Source: a candidate division WOR-3 bacterium
GTDB taxonomy: Bacteria; Hydrothermota; Tepidihabitantia; Tepidihabitantales; Tepidihabitantaceae
Reading direction: 5' to 3'
Assembly: GCA_016867815.1 (NCBI GenBank)
Contig: VGIR01000017.1
Coordinates: forward strand, 1 to 42,031
Length of the DNA stretch: 42,031 nucleotides
Position 1 is the first letter of the stretch. Every line of letters starts with the position of its first letter. The translations under genes and the position numbers were made by a program. Positions 5,077 through 33,233 of this stretch are shown here, piece after piece. The notes below the pieces were generated by a model. The model saw only the letters and a program-made list of their open reading frames with translations, searched no databases and was not told the origin of the DNA.

Positions 5077-7524
5077 ATGAAGAGGCGCAATATGTACGCG
5101 GTCGTTTTGCTCTGCCTGGCCGGCGTCTTAAAGGCGCAGCCGGGCGCGGACCAGGGGGCCGGCACAATCAGGGGCCGCGCGTTCGACGCATCCCAGGGAG
5201 AACCGGTGGAGTACGCCAACGTCGTCCTCTACTCTCTGCCGGAGAGCACGCAGGTAAGCGGCACCGTTACGGACAAGGCCGGCGGATTCCGGCTCGACGG
5301 AGTGAGGCCGGGGCGCTACTACGTCGAGCTCTCGTTTATCGGATACCGCGACCGAACCGTGAAGGAAATCGAGGTCACGAGTGGGGCACAGGTAGACCTG
5401 GGCCAAATCGGGCTGGAGCTGAAGCCCATTTCGGTCCCGGGTGTCGAGGCGACGGCGGAGAAGCCGGCAGTCAGCTACCAGGTTGACAAGAAGGTCGTTG
5501 ACGTCAGCCGACTTCCCAACGCGTCGTCGGGCACAGCCGTTGACGCCTTGCGCGACGTGCCGTCGGTGAAGGTGGACATCGAGGACAACGTTACCCTGCG
5601 CGGCAGTTCGAACTTCAAGGTGCTGATTGACGGCAAGCCGACGTTGCTCGACCCCAACGAGGTGTTGAAGCAGACTCCGGCCCAGACCATCGACAAGATA
5701 GAGATCATCACCAACCCCTCGGCCAAGTACGAGCCGGACGGCGCTGCCGGCATAGTCAACATCCTGCTCAAGAAGCAGAAGGGCCGGGGAACCAGCGCGC
5801 TGGTCAATGCGAACGCGGGCCTGAAGGGCCGCTACGGCGTCGACGCCCTGCTCAGCTACAAGCGGGGAATAGCCAACGTGTACGCCGGCGGGAATGTCCG
5901 CCGCTACACCTCTGACTGGAACTCAGGGGATTCGACGTGGATGTTCGGTGCGGCCGACACATATGTCAGAACCAGCGTCGGCGCGGGCGGCTGGTCCGGC
6001 ATTACCGGCGCGGGCCGGGCCGGGATTGACCTGACGTTCAGTCCCCGTGACAAGTCGAGCATCTCCGGACGGTTCGGCAGCTTCGACGGCCTCACCGTAT
6101 CCGGCTCGGACCGATTCGAGTCTCTGCCCAGCGATTCCTCGCGACGCTACCGCGTCGCCAGCAACTGGAGCTACTCCCGGCTCTTCTACTTCCTCACTGC
6201 CGACCACGAGCATCTCTTCGACACGAGCGGGCACAAGCTGACGGCGAGCGCATACGTTGTGAACAACACCGGCGGCAGCTACTCGGCGAATGCCGACATG
6301 GACTCGGTTGGGGGAGACACCACGGGCGGGCGCAGCAGCGACGAGCTGGGCCCGATGACCCGCGCCAGCCTCGACCTGGGCTACACGCTGCCCTTGCGGC
6401 AGAAGGAAAAGCTCGAGGCCGGGTTCCAGAGCCGGCTGGATGGTACGGACCAGGACCTGAAGGTCAGCCTCTACGATACGGCGACGCGTGCCTGGGTCCG
6501 GGATGCGCGTTCCAGCCACAAGTATGGCGGCGGCCAGAGCATCCAGTCGTTATATGCGACGTACTCGTGGAGCTGGCGCGAGCTGGGCCTGCAGCCCGGG
6601 CTGAGGGGCGAGTACGGAACCCGGGTCGTCAGAGTAACGGACATGGACACGACGTGGCCGGTGACGCGCTGGGACTATTTCCCGAGCCTGCACGCGAGCT
6701 ACGGGCTGGGCGCGGGCAAGCAGGTCACGGCCAGCTACTCGCGTCGCATAGACCGTCCCGACGCCTGGTACCTGCGCCCGGTCGAGCTGTGGTACGACAA
6801 GAACTGGGTGAGTATCGGCAATCCACTGCTGCGGCCTTCGTTCACCAATTCCTGGGAGGCGGGGTGCGAACTTCCGTTCGGAGCCAACTTCCTGTCGGCT
6901 GAGGCATACTACCGGACTACAACCGACATAGTCGAGTGGGTGAACCGGCGGGACACGACGAACCCGACAGTGTTGCGCCAGACGGCAGAGAACGTCGGGC
7001 GCGACCGCTCAGTCGGCGTGGAGGTGACGGCGAACGTGTCTCCATTCAAGTGGTTCACCGCGTACGTGACCGGGGACTTCTACGACTACCGGGAGATTGC
7101 GGCGCTGCTCGGTGATGATTCCATTCGCAGCACATTCACGTGGAGCAGCTCGGCCAACCTGACATTTCGTCCGGCAACGAACACGCAGGTCCAGCTCAAC
7201 GGCTACTACTCGGGTCCGAGTATCACCGCCACGAGCAGGTCCGATGGATGGCTCGGCGCCAACCTGGCGGTGAAACAGAGTCTGTTCAACCGCGCGCTTT
7301 CGATCACCCTGCGCCTCAGCAACCTGCTCGGTTCTCGGATTCAGAACTGGAAGACAGACGGTGCGGGGTTTCGTACGGTCACGTCCTACGGTACAGAGGG
7401 TTTGACTGTTTCGCTGGCGCTCAGCTACAACTTCAACAACTTCAAGCTCGACCCGAAGATGCGGGCGGGCGAGGGAATCGAGCAGGAAGGTACGGGCGGC
7501 GGGGCCGGCGGTCCGCAGCGCTAG
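5077..7524 (+). CDS. Outer-membrane beta-barrel receptor, paralogue of the divergent neighbour, 815 aa
   Basis: Same architecture as the 2253-4847 gene: signal peptide (MKRRNMYAVVLLCLAGVLKAQ), regulatory domain at about 27-110 (GRAFDASQGEPVEYANV, YYVELSFIGYRD), plug at about 140-240 (DVPSVKVDIEDNVTLRG, KIEIITNPSAKYEPDGA), then the barrel to about residue 790 with the closing NFNNFKLDPK and a Gly-rich tail. The two proteins align motif by motif, so they arose by an inverted duplication or by duplication and inversion. The start at 5077 gives the basic n-region and fits the promoter; ATG 5092 has an AAGAGG in front but would lose the KRR. It lacks the Gly/His-rich loop of its paralogue. Transported ligand unknown. 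Confidence 0.88.
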   Translation: MKRRNMYAVVLLCLAGVLKAQPGADQGAGTIRGRAFDASQGEPVEYANVVLYSLPESTQVSGTVTDKAGGFRLDGVRPGRYYVELSFIGYRDRTVKEIEVTSGAQVDLGQIGLELKPISVPGVEATAEKPAVSYQVDKKVVDVSRLPNASSGTAVDALRDVPSVKVDIEDNVTLRGSSNFKVLIDGKPTLLDPNEVLKQTPAQTIDKIEIITNPSAKYEPDGAAGIVNILLKKQKGRGTSALVNANAGLKGRYGVDALLSYKRGIANVYAGGNVRRYTSDWNSGDSTWMFGAADTYVRTSVGAGGWSGITGAGRAGIDLTFSPRDKSSISGRFGSFDGLTVSGSDRFESLPSDSSRRYRVASNWSYSRLFYFLTADHEHLFDTSGHKLTASAYVVNNTGGSYSANADMDSVGGDTTGGRSSDELGPMTRASLDLGYTLPLRQKEKLEAGFQSRLDGTDQDLKVSLYDTATRAWVRDARSSHKYGGGQSIQSLYATYSWSWRELGLQPGLRGEYGTRVVRVTDMDTTWPVTRWDYFPSLHASYGLGAGKQVTASYSRRIDRPDAWYLRPVELWYDKNWVSIGNPLLRPSFTNSWEAGCELPFGANFLSAEAYYRTTTDIVEWVNRRDTTNPTVLRQTAENVGRDRSVGVEVTANVSPFKWFTAYVTGDFYDYREIAALLGDDSIRSTFTWSSSANLTFRPATNTQVQLNGYYSGPSITATSRSDGWLGANLAVKQSLFNRALSITLRLSNLLGSRIQNWKTDGAGFRTVTSYGTEGLTVSLALSYNFNNFKLDPKMRAGEGIEQEGTGGGAGGPQR

Positions 7525-10841: not shown

Positions 10842-11546
10842 CTAGGTCCGAGCTATACTCTCGTCGACCAGCGCGGTGATTCGTTCGCGGAGTGTGGCCC
10901 GAACCGGCAGGGCTTCGATCCCGATGTCTGCCGTCCAGCGTTCCAGTTCCTCAAGCTTGGGCTTGAGCTTGTGCTCGTCCTTGCTGCGAGTGAGTAACCG
11001 CCAGAGCTTCCTCGCGTAGACTCGCGTCCAGGCCGCCTCGACTGAGGCCGGCTTGATGCCGGCGGACGAGAGCTCAGTCTCCACCAGCCGATTCAGCTGG
11101 CGTTGCGCTTCCTGGCCTCGCGCGTACGCCCGGACGCGGGCAAGTCGCTTGCGTACCGGCTCTGTTGTCAGTTTGGCCCGCAGGACGTGATGGTCGTACT
11201 TCTCGACCGCTCCGGCCACGCGCCACGACAGCTTCTTGGCGAGGCTCCGCACCCGCTTGTACCCGCGCTGCTCCAGCACGGTGGGCTGAAAGGTATAGGC
11301 ATTGAGCAGGTCGGCGATGTCGGCGAACGAGGCCCGGCACGCCCGCAGATAGTCGGCCACAAAGCCGAGAGAAGGATAGGGGGCCTTGCCAAGCTCCACC
11401 TTGCCGATGAGTTGGTGATTGCCTTTGCCTTGCCTCCCCATCAGTACCACTAGCTCCTGCTGGGTCATGCCTTCTCGGAACCGGAGTTCGCGCAGCCTCA
11501 ATCCCATTTCGGGCGTGAACCTGAACATCTCTTTCGACCTGCTCAT
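10842..11546 (-). CDS. XRE-family helix-turn-helix regulator, 234 aa
   Basis: Residues about 10-70 form a Cro/cI-type helix-turn-helix (GLRLRELRFREGMTQQELV, then GKVELGKAPYPSLGFVADYL). The remaining 160 residues are helical and rich in Arg, Lys and Leu; no family recognised there. It presumably binds DNA in the cytoplasm. The promoter and a long inverted repeat overlap directly upstream, with arms flanking the -10 box and touching the -35 box, which suggests autorepression. The -10 box ends 9 nt before ATG 11546, so the transcript would have almost no leader. A longer reading frame in another register is a shadow. It borders array C. Confidence 0.8.
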   Translation of the reverse strand: MSRSKEMFRFTPEMGLRLRELRFREGMTQQELVVLMGRQGKGNHQLIGKVELGKAPYPSLGFVADYLRACRASFADIADLLNAYTFQPTVLEQRGYKRVRSLAKKLSWRVAGAVEKYDHHVLRAKLTTEPVRKRLARVRAYARGQEAQRQLNRLVETELSSAGIKPASVEAAWTRVYARKLWRLLTRSKDEHKLKPKLEELERWTADIGIEALPVRATLRERITALVDESIART

Positions 11547-11547
11547 A

Positions 11548-11584
11548 TTGACCGCATGATACCAATAGGACTCATGCGGGTCAA
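11548..11584 (-). promoter_or_regulatory. Promoter overlapped by inverted-repeat operator
   Basis: On the minus strand TTGACC (11584-11579), 17-nt spacer, TATCAT (11561-11556). The plus strand shows TTGACCGCATGA (11548-11559) and, after 12 nt, TCATGCGGGTCAA (11572-11584), an inverted repeat with one extra G. The likely ligand is the adjacent XRE regulator. Confidence 0.7.
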
Positions 11585-11627
11585 TGGCATGAATGGGGGA
11601 TAAGACGCGGTATCAGAGGAGGTTGGG

Positions 11628-12011
11628 GTCGCTATGCGAGTCGGCCTGGGGGTCGCTCCGGGGACGGCCCGGAGGGCGGTCTGCGGTGTTGTCTGGGAGT
11701 GAGTCCCGAAAGCCATTCAGACGGCTATTCTTGGGGTGATTGAGAAAGCGAAATGCAGGCCAGTTCGGAACGCGCTTCGGGACGCAACGCCCTGCGCTAC
11801 CCCGATTTCTGCTCTATCCGCTATCTGTTCAGCAGCCCCGAGTGTCGCCTAGCGGGTCACTTGTACGACAACCTGCGAGACTGCTTGGAGGGCGATTCGT
11901 TCGACTATCTACAGGGCAATTCGCGGAGCTGCGTGGCGGCTAGCAGTCGGGACTGGGGTGAGAGACGGAGGATTGGCTGTCCGGGCGACTATCCGTCCAT
12001 CCGTAGTTGCC
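11628..12011. repeat. Array C: degenerate 12-bp tandem repeat, 32 units
   Basis: Cutting every 12 bp from 11628 gives 32 units in one phase. Position 4 is a purine in 31 of 32 units, and position 5 is a pyrimidine in 28 of 32; position 1 is mostly G. Typical units are GCGATTCGTTCG and ACTGCTTGGAGG. It shares the period, but not the consensus, with arrays A and B. Confidence 0.8.
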
Positions 12012-12017
12012 GTCCGT

Positions 12018-12070
12018 ATCTCTGGATTCTGATCTCTGGATTCTGGTTTCTGGACTCTGAGCTCTGGACT
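12018..12070. repeat. CTGGATTCTG-type word repeat
   Basis: CTCTGGATTCTGATCTCTGG and variants follow array C without a gap. The same word family appears reversed at 16923 and again at 30812. Confidence 0.55.
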
Positions 12071-12087
12071 ATCCGAACCCGAAAGCG

Positions 12088-12690
12088 CTACGGCAGGTCG
12101 GCGGACTTGAGCTCGAACCTCCACGTCGGCGACGTGAAGCCCTCACCCTTCACCGCGCCTATTCCTTTCGCATAGCACACCCGATAGTACAACTGCCCGA
12201 GCAGTCCGTAGTAGTTCACCTCGTAGCAGTTCTTGAATGTGCCGGCCGGCAGGATAACGTCCGTCTTCCCAGCCACTACTGCCGAGTCGGTCCAGAGCGC
12301 GTAGGTCCAACGCCATACCGCTACCGAATCCAAGGGCTGCACCACTACCGCAAGGGGCGTCAGTCCGCCCCTGGACCCGAGCCAGGTGGTATCTCCGCTC
12401 ACCGTGTAGAAACAGGAAGTATCGCCGTCGAGATTGTTGAAGGGGAAGACGTTCGCAAGCGTTACCCCGCTGTCGGTGACCGCCTTCGCGTAGTGCTTCA
12501 CCTCGCCGACCTCCGTCACAGTCACGCTGAAGTCCCAGGTATCGCCAGCGCTCGTGAGTCTGTACGTCCACTTGCTACCGAGTTCCAGCGGAAACCAGCC
12601 CTGTGACAGCTTCTTGCGGCAGCCGAAAGACAGCAACGCCAGCGGGATGATGAACAGGAACGTGAGAAGCCTGATGCGTCCGGTCGTCAT
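12088..12690 (-). CDS. Lipoprotein, 200 aa, unknown function
   Basis: The start at 12690 is chosen because TAGAAT ends 7 nt upstream with a TTGACA at the right distance; an in-frame ATG at 12708 would lie inside that promoter. The N-terminus MTTGRIRLLTFLFIIPLALL followed by SFGC is a lipoprotein signal with Cys as the lipidated residue. The mature part is beta-rich (GWFPLELGSKWTYRL, KHYAKAVTDSGVTLANVF) and resembles secreted proteins that begin with a 'YFPLxxGNxWxY' motif. It ends with sequence that reads FELKSADLP. Anchoring in an envelope membrane is inferred; no function assigned. Confidence 0.72.
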   Translation of the reverse strand: MTTGRIRLLTFLFIIPLALLSFGCRKKLSQGWFPLELGSKWTYRLTSAGDTWDFSVTVTEVGEVKHYAKAVTDSGVTLANVFPFNNLDGDTSCFYTVSGDTTWLGSRGGLTPLAVVVQPLDSVAVWRWTYALWTDSAVVAGKTDVILPAGTFKNCYEVNYYGLLGQLYYRVCYAKGIGAVKGEGFTSPTWRFELKSADLP

Positions 12691-12781: not shown

Positions 12782-13711
12782 CTACTTCCTCTGCTCAATC
12801 TCACGGAGCGCGCACCCTGCGGCTACTCTCACGCTTTCCTCGCTGTCTTGGGCGAGACCCTTTAGCAGCAGCCTTGAGCGGTCATCGCCGATCGCCCTAA
12901 GTACGCTCACGGCTTTCCGTCGAGCATCCGACACGTAGTACCACCGGAGGACATCATCTTCACTCTTCGGCTGCCGGAGCCCTAGGACTTCTTGTGCGAC
13001 TTCGAACGCCAACTCCGTGTCCGTGCCAACCAGACGCAAAGCTGCGCCCGCGCGTAGCTCAGGGTTCCGAGATTGCGTCGCCTTTCGGAAGTATCGATAG
13101 ATAGTGTCGAGGTCCTCGGGGCGGTCACGGTAGGCGTCGATGGACGTGCCGACGGCCCGGAAGGCGTTCGATGGAATCGCTCCGGGATCGCTATCTCCCA
13201 GCGCGAGCACTGATCTGAACACGGGCAGTGCTGCATGCAAATCACCGAGCTGGAACAGCGCAGCCGCCGCGCCCAACTGGACAGCTCTGTTCATCACCAG
13301 TGTGTTTCCGGCGCCTGTTGCCCGGGCCGCAAAACGGCGCTCCAGAGTGAGATTCTGCTTCAAGACGGGAATAGCGCTCCTTGCTCCCATGCTGCCGAGG
13401 AAGTCCGCAGCGATCAGCAGAGCATCGCGCGTCTGCCGCGCCCCGGTGTCCGACAGCATCTCAATCATCGTCGGTATTGCCCGCGGGTCCCGGGAGCTGG
13501 CAATCCACTGCATCAGTTGCTCATACCTGAATGTCGAGTTCTGCGCTGCTGGCTGATGAAGCTGTTTGATGTAGCTGGGGAGATTGCGTCGATGAGATTC
13601 CCGCATCTTCTTGGTGAGGTCCGGCTCTTGGTCCGCTGCCAGCGCCGTGACGACTGTCATGGAGGATAGCAGCGCAGCTGTTATTGAAAGCCACGTCGTG
13701 CGCATCCGCAT
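12782..13711 (-). CDS. Secreted HEAT-repeat protein, 309 aa
   Basis: A signal peptide (MRMRTTWLSITAALLSSMTVVTALA) precedes helical repeats of the HEAT/PBS-lyase type: SSRDPRAIPTMIEMLSD, GARSAIPVLKQNL, and C-terminal SVLRAIGDD..., SVRVAAGCALREIEQR. HEAT repeats form curved helical scaffolds for protein binding; the partner is unknown. The start at 13711 is the first of two nearby ATGs (13705 is the other), and neither has a good ribosome-binding site. It lies 63 nt downstream of HicB on the same strand and 91 nt upstream of the lipoprotein gene, which has its own promoter. Confidence 0.72.
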   Translation of the reverse strand: MRMRTTWLSITAALLSSMTVVTALAADQEPDLTKKMRESHRRNLPSYIKQLHQPAAQNSTFRYEQLMQWIASSRDPRAIPTMIEMLSDTGARQTRDALLIAADFLGSMGARSAIPVLKQNLTLERRFAARATGAGNTLVMNRAVQLGAAAALFQLGDLHAALPVFRSVLALGDSDPGAIPSNAFRAVGTSIDAYRDRPEDLDTIYRYFRKATQSRNPELRAGAALRLVGTDTELAFEVAQEVLGLRQPKSEDDVLRWYYVSDARRKAVSVLRAIGDDRSRLLLKGLAQDSEESVRVAAGCALREIEQRK

Positions 13712-15180: not shown

Positions 15181-15963
15181 ATGGCGCAGCGTATCGCAAT
15201 CTGCAACCAGAAAGGCGGGGTCGGGAAGACAACGACCTCGGTCAGCCTTGCTGCTGCACTGGCTCTACGCGGGGGACGGGCGCTGCTGGTGGATATGGAC
15301 CCGCAGGCGCACGCCACGCTCGGGCTGGGAGTGGACCGGACCAAGCTTGAGATATCGGTCTACGAGGCGATGTGTGAGGCGCAGCGGGTCACCGACGCGG
15401 TGCTGAAGGACCGGGCGGAGAATCTGGACCTGCTGCCGGCGTCGGTGAGTCTGGCTGGCGGTGAGGTGGAGTTGATAGACGCGGATGAGCGCGAGTTCCG
15501 GCTGAACAAGGCGCTGGGGCTAATCGACCCCGACTACCAGTTCATCATCATCGATTGCCCGCCGTCGCTGGGCATTCTCACAGTTAACTGCCTGGTGGCG
15601 GCACAGAGTGTGTTGATTCCGGTCCAGGCCGAGTATCTGGCAATGGAAGGAATGTCGCGGCTGCTTGATACCGTCAGTCTCGTGCGGCAGGGACTGAATC
15701 TGACCCTGGCGATTGAGGGAGTGCTGATTACGATGTACTCGTCGCGGTTGAGCCTTGCCCAGCAGGTTGCCGAAGAGGTGCGGAGCTATTTCAAAGAGCA
15801 GGTGTTCGATACCGTGATCCCGAGGAGCGTGCGGCTGGCGGAAGCCCCAAGCTTCGGGAAGACGATATTCGGCTACGACGGTCATTCGGCCGGGGCGCAG
15901 GCGTACATGGCGCTGGCGGATGAGGTGATGGCGAGGCACAAGTCTGCGGAAAGGACAAAGTGA
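15181..15963 (+). CDS. parA: ParA/Soj chromosome-partition ATPase, 260 aa
   Basis: A deviant Walker A box (KGGVGKTT, residues 11-18) with the signature Lys, a Walker A' region (LLVDMDPQAHATLGLG) and Walker B (FIIIDCPPSLG) identify a Soj-type ParA, close to the usual length of 250-260. ParA dimers bind DNA non-specifically and, with ParB, move origin regions; the protein acts at the nucleoid. It is followed by parB at a 111-bp gap filled with repeat words, and an M23 peptidase comes next, a grouping common in bacteria. The start is fixed by its leaderless promoter. No parS site was seen in the window. Confidence 0.95.
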   Translation: MAQRIAICNQKGGVGKTTTSVSLAAALALRGGRALLVDMDPQAHATLGLGVDRTKLEISVYEAMCEAQRVTDAVLKDRAENLDLLPASVSLAGGEVELIDADEREFRLNKALGLIDPDYQFIIIDCPPSLGILTVNCLVAAQSVLIPVQAEYLAMEGMSRLLDTVSLVRQGLNLTLAIEGVLITMYSSRLSLAQQVAEEVRSYFKEQVFDTVIPRSVRLAEAPSFGKTIFGYDGHSAGAQAYMALADEVMARHKSAERTK

Positions 15964-32535: not shown

Positions 32536-33029
32536 CTTACACCTCTGGGTCCCGATCCGGAGATTGAGCCACAGAGCGCCTGGCGCGGCCTGGGAGGCCG
32601 CAACCAAACCCAGGCGAACCACGGGTGAACAGAGATGGACACAGATCCAGCCCAGTGCCGAACTCAAACGCTGTGTCGCCGGAGGGGCACTTTGCGGTGG
32701 TCTTCAGGACCCCGATCGCCTTGGCGGGCGCGCAAGTGTCGGTTCCAGAATTCGGCGCGGGCTAGGTCAACCGTCCGTCAGGAGTCGCCCGCCACAATGC
32801 CGGAACCGGGCTCCGCCATTTTGCAGTCTTACGCCTGCAATCTGCAGTCTGGATAGGCGGGCGAAACCCGCGGCTACGCCTTGACATCGTCTGGAAACAT
32901 GGGAAGTATCCATCATCTTGCCCACTTCACCGTTCGAGGTTTGGCTCATTCCCCCATCTTCTTGTTGCCGGCCCAGGGCAACCGTCTCGCTTCCCCCTTC
33001 TCTACTAGAAATCGTACTCGCAAAGCTAT

Positions 33030-33233
33030 ACATGGGACCTGGCAGCTGATTTGCAGGACGAATGGTAGAGCCTCAGCCGAGGGGACTTGGAAGGTCTGTT
33101 GCAGGGTGTCTCGCGGTTTGTCCTGCAGGCCGGTTTCTGCCGTGGTATGCGCGGTGAATTCGGAAGTGAGACGTACGGCCTGCTCAAGGGCGGGAAATCT
33201 GGTACTCGCACGGCCCCTGCTCCAGGTTGCCAC
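33030..33233 (-). repeat. Array D: weak 12-bp tandem repeat, 17 units
   Basis: Read on the minus strand in 12-bp units (typical CAGGACAAACCG, CGAGACACCCTG), position 8 is C in 12 of 17 units and position 9 is a pyrimidine in 14 of 17. This is the most diverged of the four arrays. Confidence 0.5.

Follow-up and report, generated by a model that had tools for sequence, protein, structure and literature searches.

The window, a stretch of 42,031 nucleotides, is contig C17 of a 3.37-Mb candidate division WOR-3 assembly in 215 contigs. Two of its genes encode proteins with a helical domain resembling the coat proteins of Adnaviria, filamentous viruses of archaea: P0001, in which this domain follows an XRE-type helix-turn-helix, and P0002, which stands alone (Table 1). 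Upstream of each gene lies an array of 12-bp units, array C before P0001 and array A before P0002, the latter followed by a spacer and array B. A ParA-type ATPase gene occupies 15181–15963.

Table 1. Features of the window (forward-strand coordinates).
Feature	Coordinates	Strand	Basis or remark
Stand-alone capsid-like gene, 123-aa form (P0002)	692–1063, ORF extends to 1111	-	Sulf_coat_C; BLASTP
Array A, 12-bp period, upstream of P0002 gene	1256–1591	none	Period scan; HMM
Spacer between arrays A and B	1592–1793	none	Conserved in dispersed copies
Array B, 12-bp period	1794–2133	none	Period scan; HMM
XRE/capsid-like fusion protein P0001, 234 aa	10842–11546	-	Pfam HTH_31 above cut-off; 11 matches in own genome
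Capsid-like helical domain of P0001, residues 107–231	10854–11228	-	VIA-align to AFV1 coats; hhalign to stand-alone proteins
HTH_31 domain of P0001, residues 13–79	11310–11510	-	Pfam; VIA-align to XRE/C-protein structures
Palindromic operator (predicted), overlaps XRE promoter	11548–11584	none	Sequence inspection; conserved among homologous loci
XRE promoter: -35 TTGACC, -10 TATCAT, 17-bp spacer	overlaps 11548–11584	-	By eye
G-run at gene-proximal end of array C	11595–11599	none	Present in other arrays too
Array C, 12-bp-periodic, phase-locked, non-coding	11625–12004	none	~30 units; cyclic HMM

The first-pass annotation had read 11628–12011 as 32 units with purines as the fourth base and pyrimidines as the fifth, and an exact recount agrees (31/32 and 28/32, respectively). 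This step proves too narrow a description of the pattern, since positions 1 (purine in 27/32), 2 (pyrimidine in 30/32), 6 (pyrimidine in 25/32) and 7 (pyrimidine in 26/32) are also class-biased. The best purine–pyrimidine step score at period 12 is 0.92, exceeding every one of 2,000 dinucleotide shuffles (mean 0.60, maximum 0.73). Phase 4, picked on either half of the array, holds on the other (16/16 purines with 14/16 pyrimidines, and 15/16 with 14/16), so the periodicity survives a split-half test, and a cyclic HMM passes through array C with zero phase shifts. The array begins about 80 bp upstream of the XRE start codon at 11546, past the palindromic operator, as had been claimed. A G-test scan of the window, run with the codon period removed, places period-12 arrays at 1213–1632 (A), 1765–2172 (B), 11617–12012 (C) and 32989–33228; the last overlaps two possible reading frames, with no coat-like gene found nearby. 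The same scan gives a period-7 signal at 11965–12192 (core 12018–12068), a degenerate array of CTGRNYT adjoining array C. The stretch has matches at many genomic sites. Because it is common to the syntenic locus L042, the 7-bp array seems to lie outside the array C cassette.

The conservation was also described at first pass as structural, not coding. The second half of that statement stands: stops occur in all six frames of array C and of several other arrays, 13/31 open runs on the XRE-divergent strand lack a start codon ahead of the array, and synonymous fractions in the three array alignments peak at 0.46, in a frame interrupted by stops, compared with 0.70 for an XRE-gene control. On these grounds (stops, missing start codons, no synonymous excess) we rejected a coding array; the structural half is what we infer from the proteins described below. 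RNA folding of array C is no better than shuffles on both strands (z 0.36 and -0.68) and Rfam has no match in the window or at two further array loci (L050 and L063), and an RNA reading was likewise set aside. Stop codons are somewhat depleted on the XRE-divergent strand (263 versus 309, s.d. 11, in column shuffles), as would suit arrays that work as RNA or are translated into a tetrapeptide-repeat protein, but given the in-frame stops, missing start codons, lack of a synonymous excess and absence of Rfam and folding signals we think this highly improbable.

Arrays of this kind recur across WOR-3. In the named collection, P0001 itself has matches in candidate division WOR-3 records only (3 loci). 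Our genome search yielded 39 XRE loci, 36 of them with enough upstream DNA (L012, L030 and L037 were not testable), and a 12-bp array lies upstream in 30 of these 36, counting L017, where the segment is weak and 24 bp long; L018, L034, L036, L038, L039 and L040 have none. The array-bearing loci cover seven genera of the family, g5 being counted on the weak array L033, with L035 adding another family of the order. In stretches chosen without bias, the window's own genome has 11 arrays (399 kb), G007 has 7 (200 kb) and G012 has 2 (200 kb); 200 kb from each of G031 and G043, both of which are without the XRE family, yielded none. Stretches of G003, G015 and G008 hold 8, 4 and 0, figures that are not unbiased because these contigs were picked for carrying XRE matches; arrays are thus present in samples of G000, G003, G007, G012 and G015. 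Among 168-bp windows with z ≥ 7.5 in six sampled genomes, 60 have period 12, one has period 14 and none has period 10, 11 or 13.

Array size and register are tightly held, with a median of 25 units per array (interquartile range 24–28; 61 arrays, related copies included) and six phase shifts in 15.8 kb (49 arrays, cyclic HMM), although identity between the units of one array is only about 45%. Among seven homologous arrays from four genomes, alignment needs no gap over about 300 bp, and same-place units are 58% identical against 39–47% for other units. Copies of the 850-bp element formed by array A, spacer and array B differ within their arrays by indels of 12 or 24 bases, save one 1-base deletion (L160). 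The A–B spacer, which gains 2+10 or 12 bases in dispersed copies, is also nearly indel-free, and a low indel rate is therefore not unique to the arrays. Ordinary minisatellites, born of 12-bp slippage and now drifting, would account for the slightly greater likeness of neighbouring units over distant ones (0.49 versus about 0.43) and for block duplications in some arrays. They would not be expected to show strict phase despite strong divergence, position-wise homology between species, a narrow unit number, an upstream placement and an absence of windows of period 10, 11 or 13 from the six sampled genomes, and we give this origin very little credence.

What the units share is largely base class. 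Of 360 columns, 72 are conserved at the purine/pyrimidine level, 29 as strong/weak and 8 as keto/amino, and a purine/pyrimidine consensus drawn from other genomes scores 0.705 on held-out own-genome arrays, where permuted columns score 0.581 (s.d. 0.024). The proposal that array C preserves a base class rather than a base is thus borne out and extends to other loci, in the sense that class is held at certain unit positions; it does not extend to a general excess of transitions. Our transition measure is 1.12 in array A, 0.81 in array B and 1.26 in the non-array spacer between them, and this spacer control rules out a general transition bias; an initial contrast (array 1.54 versus 0.54 at four-fold sites) was discarded, as it compared saturated sites. 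Units are mildly self-complementary when all four letters are used (mean z 0.95, s.e. 0.15; 11/47 arrays at p < 0.05), a dyad signal that is weak with purine/pyrimidine classes alone (mean z 0.34, s.e. 0.16). Arrays vary in orientation relative to the XRE gene and typically stop about 100 bp from its start codon; the interval in between also contains a block of conserved sequence (alignment A4). Unit sequences differ from locus to locus, so one sequence-specific reader cannot serve all arrays. At L044, two arrays with unrelated units (254–553 and 1040–1375, reverse-complement coordinates) lie upstream of one XRE gene, and one of the two shows a 36-bp higher-order repeat.

The coat-like proteins take two forms in WOR-3, stand-alone (about 123 residues) or fused to an N-terminal XRE helix-turn-helix. 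The fusions combine HTH_31 (29.4 bits for P0001 against a curated cut-off of 27; matches at E ≤ 1 in 16/17 members of alignment A3) with a helical C-terminal part. Pfam PF12193 Sulf_coat_C scores above its curated cut-off in 10/61 relatives, including 31.7 bits at contigs C13 and C28 of the window's own genome (G000), in 0/14 control genomes and in 6/120 genomes of a phylum sample. P0002 itself falls below the cut-off (E 2.5e-4, 21.6 bits against 25.2), and Pfam does not assign P0001 to this family. Searched with a profile built from 11 stand-alone WOR-3 proteins, the whole set of PDB sequences gives as its best matches the coats of SIRV2 (E 5e-7) and SSRV1 (E 7.8e-7), and BLASTP of P0002 against the SIRV2 coat gives E 1e-7 as a single comparison. 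By hhalign, the XRE-type C-domain matches the stand-alone proteins at E 4.9e-7 (probability 92.5), and the last domain of long XRE proteins matches them weakly (E 0.0026, probability 11). The score of P0002 against the C-domain model was circular, P0002 being in its seed, and was replaced by the hhalign and BLASTP values, which tie P0001 and P0002 to the Sulf_coat_C family.

Structural comparison points the same way, to the four-helix-bundle fold of these coats. The six best VIA-align rows for a model of L026 residues 266–373 are all adnavirus coats, above every helix-turn-helix row, with Z of 12.4 (3fbz), 12.2 (6wq0), 10.9 (3fbl), 10.8 (3j9x), 10.7 (3f2e) and 10.3 (5w7g), 78–103 aligned residues and RMSD 1.9–4.4, and P0001 gives Z 10.2 (residues 123–229 on 3fbz_A) and 9.9 (residues 107–231 on 5w7g_A) against AFV1 coats; these models were built on shallow alignments of 17–22 sequences, and Z below about 13 can reflect an arrangement common among helical bundles, without kinship. 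Helical bundles can reach such values by chance, so the sequence evidence weighs more. Every Foldseek E-value is above 0.01, the matches listed for the P0001 model in BFVD are helix-turn-helix or unnamed proteins, PHROGs and PADLOC return weak or helix-turn-helix matches, and NCBIfam has no match. Taken together, homology of the WOR-3 helical domain to the Adnaviria major capsid protein is well supported. Coat-like genes occur in 18/18 genomes of the family, with 3 to 44 in each. At G000:C1 51406–53769, in L050, three consecutive coat-like genes lie downstream of one array; positions 12199–12636 of L050 also match Pfam Suppressor_P21 weakly (E 2e-4).

Stand-alone coat-like genes are linked to arrays as well. 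We took the best 30 of 34 own-genome matches, 27 of which have at least 350 bp of upstream DNA; a 12-bp array lies within 700 bp upstream in 17/27, and downstream in 1/30. The other 10/27, one whole subfamily among them, lack an array within 700 bp upstream. Coat-like genes at L221–L226, mostly of one subfamily beginning M(P)IDPTKRIANW or similar, have no upstream array, nor do coat-like genes of several other genera. Most arrays of the 399-kb unbiased sample are without an intact coat-like gene alongside; of its 11 arrays, two (L050 and L056) are upstream of coat-like genes and two (L058 and L059) come from a family that has intact or truncated XRE genes in its other copies. One such copy has the same position in two species (L058 and L186). 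In viral DNA, the 7-kb pieces that surround the coat genes of SIRV2 and AFV1 contain no 12-bp array. Rudivirus genomes reportedly vary by 12-bp indels, a report that our literature search did not find.

The array period coincides with a known protein footprint. In the published structures of AFV1 (PMC5517147), PFV2 (PMC7189273) and SFV1 (PMC6105669), a capsid dimer spans exactly 12 bp of DNA in A form, equal to the period of the WOR-3 arrays. The agreement is the more telling because the 12-bp period was seen in the DNA before the identity of the protein was known. The telling partner of the arrays would then be the capsid-like C-terminal domain, a feature undetectable to a reader given sequence only, whereas the first-pass annotation had pointed to the XRE regulator. 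That link holds for the neighbouring gene (30/36 loci), but the helix-turn-helix is probably not the array reader: by eye, the palindromic operators of L026 and L044 resemble each other but their array units are unrelated, and arrays also precede genes without a helix-turn-helix. For the same reasons we doubt that the arrays are iteron-like multi-site operators of the XRE helix-turn-helix, the capsid-like domain serving only to oligomerise. The position of the array just upstream of the start in those 30 loci and the common unit pattern of related XREs would fit such operators; a 12-bp step matches the capsid footprint and is not expected of a helix-turn-helix. Overall we consider the idea quite improbable.

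We favour reading array C as a non-coding DNA track in the register of a capsid-like DNA-binding protein, with a probability of roughly 0.6; both the binding and its function are inferred. The base-class pattern would then be structural conservation, of DNA read in register by a coat-like filament. One dimer of the capsid-like domain would cover 12 bp, as in the archaeal viruses, and successive dimers would accordingly meet identical unit positions, which might constrain mainly base class and leave an approximate dyad. In the fusion protein, the helix-turn-helix may hold the palindromic operator at the promoter as the capsid-like domain coats the adjacent array, possibly turning its DNA A-form. 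As a rule, arrays end about 100 bp from a start codon beside a palindromic operator, and our first guess at the outcome is therefore local silencing or autoregulation of the array-adjacent promoter, the least certain step of this scheme. On a wider scale, it is possible, and at present tentative, that WOR-3 bacteria coat stretches of their own chromosome into filaments of 12 bp per dimer by means of capsid relatives, with dozens of phase-locked tracks, a virus-like form of chromatin or packaging that would tie the archaea-only Adnaviria to bacteria.

The main rival to silencing or autoregulation is that the arrays are packaging or mobility signals of an element, be it virus-derived, selfish or for transfer, that encodes a coat-like protein to wrap DNA bearing a phase-matched array; gene-less arrays would be non-autonomous copies that it serves in trans. 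Arrays do form dispersed families. The copies L176 and L178 keep, by eye, the 5′ and 3′ ends of an XRE gene with its middle missing; a hairpin near the start shows, again by eye, compensatory changes. Cassettes of different subtypes are also found at the C17 locus and at L042, apparently its syntenic counterpart. Against this, inspection of the edges by eye established no terminal repeats or target duplications, IMG/VR and phage records gave no match, and the presence of coat-like genes in all 18 family genomes looks more like that of a resident cellular family. We judge packaging or mobility unlikely, and retain the filament track as the preferred reading.

Several known systems share part of this arrangement. 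Degenerate sites of the p53 or Fis type are recognized by purine/pyrimidine class with a dyad, as the WOR-3 units may be, but they are single sites, whereas the arrays comprise about 25 contiguous units in fixed register. MetJ boxes, Omega heptads and the iterons of ParR or TubR are likewise arranged head to tail close to a gene for a DNA-binding protein; they involve other folds, mostly other periods and few, more similar units, and the near-identical units typical of iterons or parS sites are not found in the WOR-3 arrays, with their identity of about 45%. Dispersed repeats of the MITE or REP type likewise include copies with internally deleted genes, but in WOR-3 the body of the element is the phase-locked array, with no terminal repeats or transposase established. 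The closest relatives by profile and structure remain the coats of SIRV2, SSRV1, AFV1, SFV1 and PFV2 (Adnaviria, Tokiviricetes), from which the WOR-3 genes differ in lying on bacterial contigs, in many copies per genome, partly fused to XRE and with dedicated 12-bp arrays. A literature search that covered few subscription papers returned no report of bacterial adnavirus coat homologues or of such arrays, and one paper states that adnavirians do not appear connected to viruses of bacteria (PMC10848233). WOR-3 genomes thus offer many bacterial homologues of the Adnaviria capsid protein beside DNA with the same period as the footprint seen by cryo-EM. If this link is real, a genome sequence by itself preserves the step of a nucleoprotein filament, bacteria become a place to test how the A-DNA-wrapping fold arose, and base classes conserved at fixed spacing serve as a signature for detecting such tracks.

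Two further repeats came to light in the sampled loci. At 13080–13775 of L063, a 12-bp array adjoins clustered DnaA-box-like sequences (TTATCCACA) that probably mark a replication origin, and L057 holds a strong period-8 array at 5329–5736 (z 14.5).
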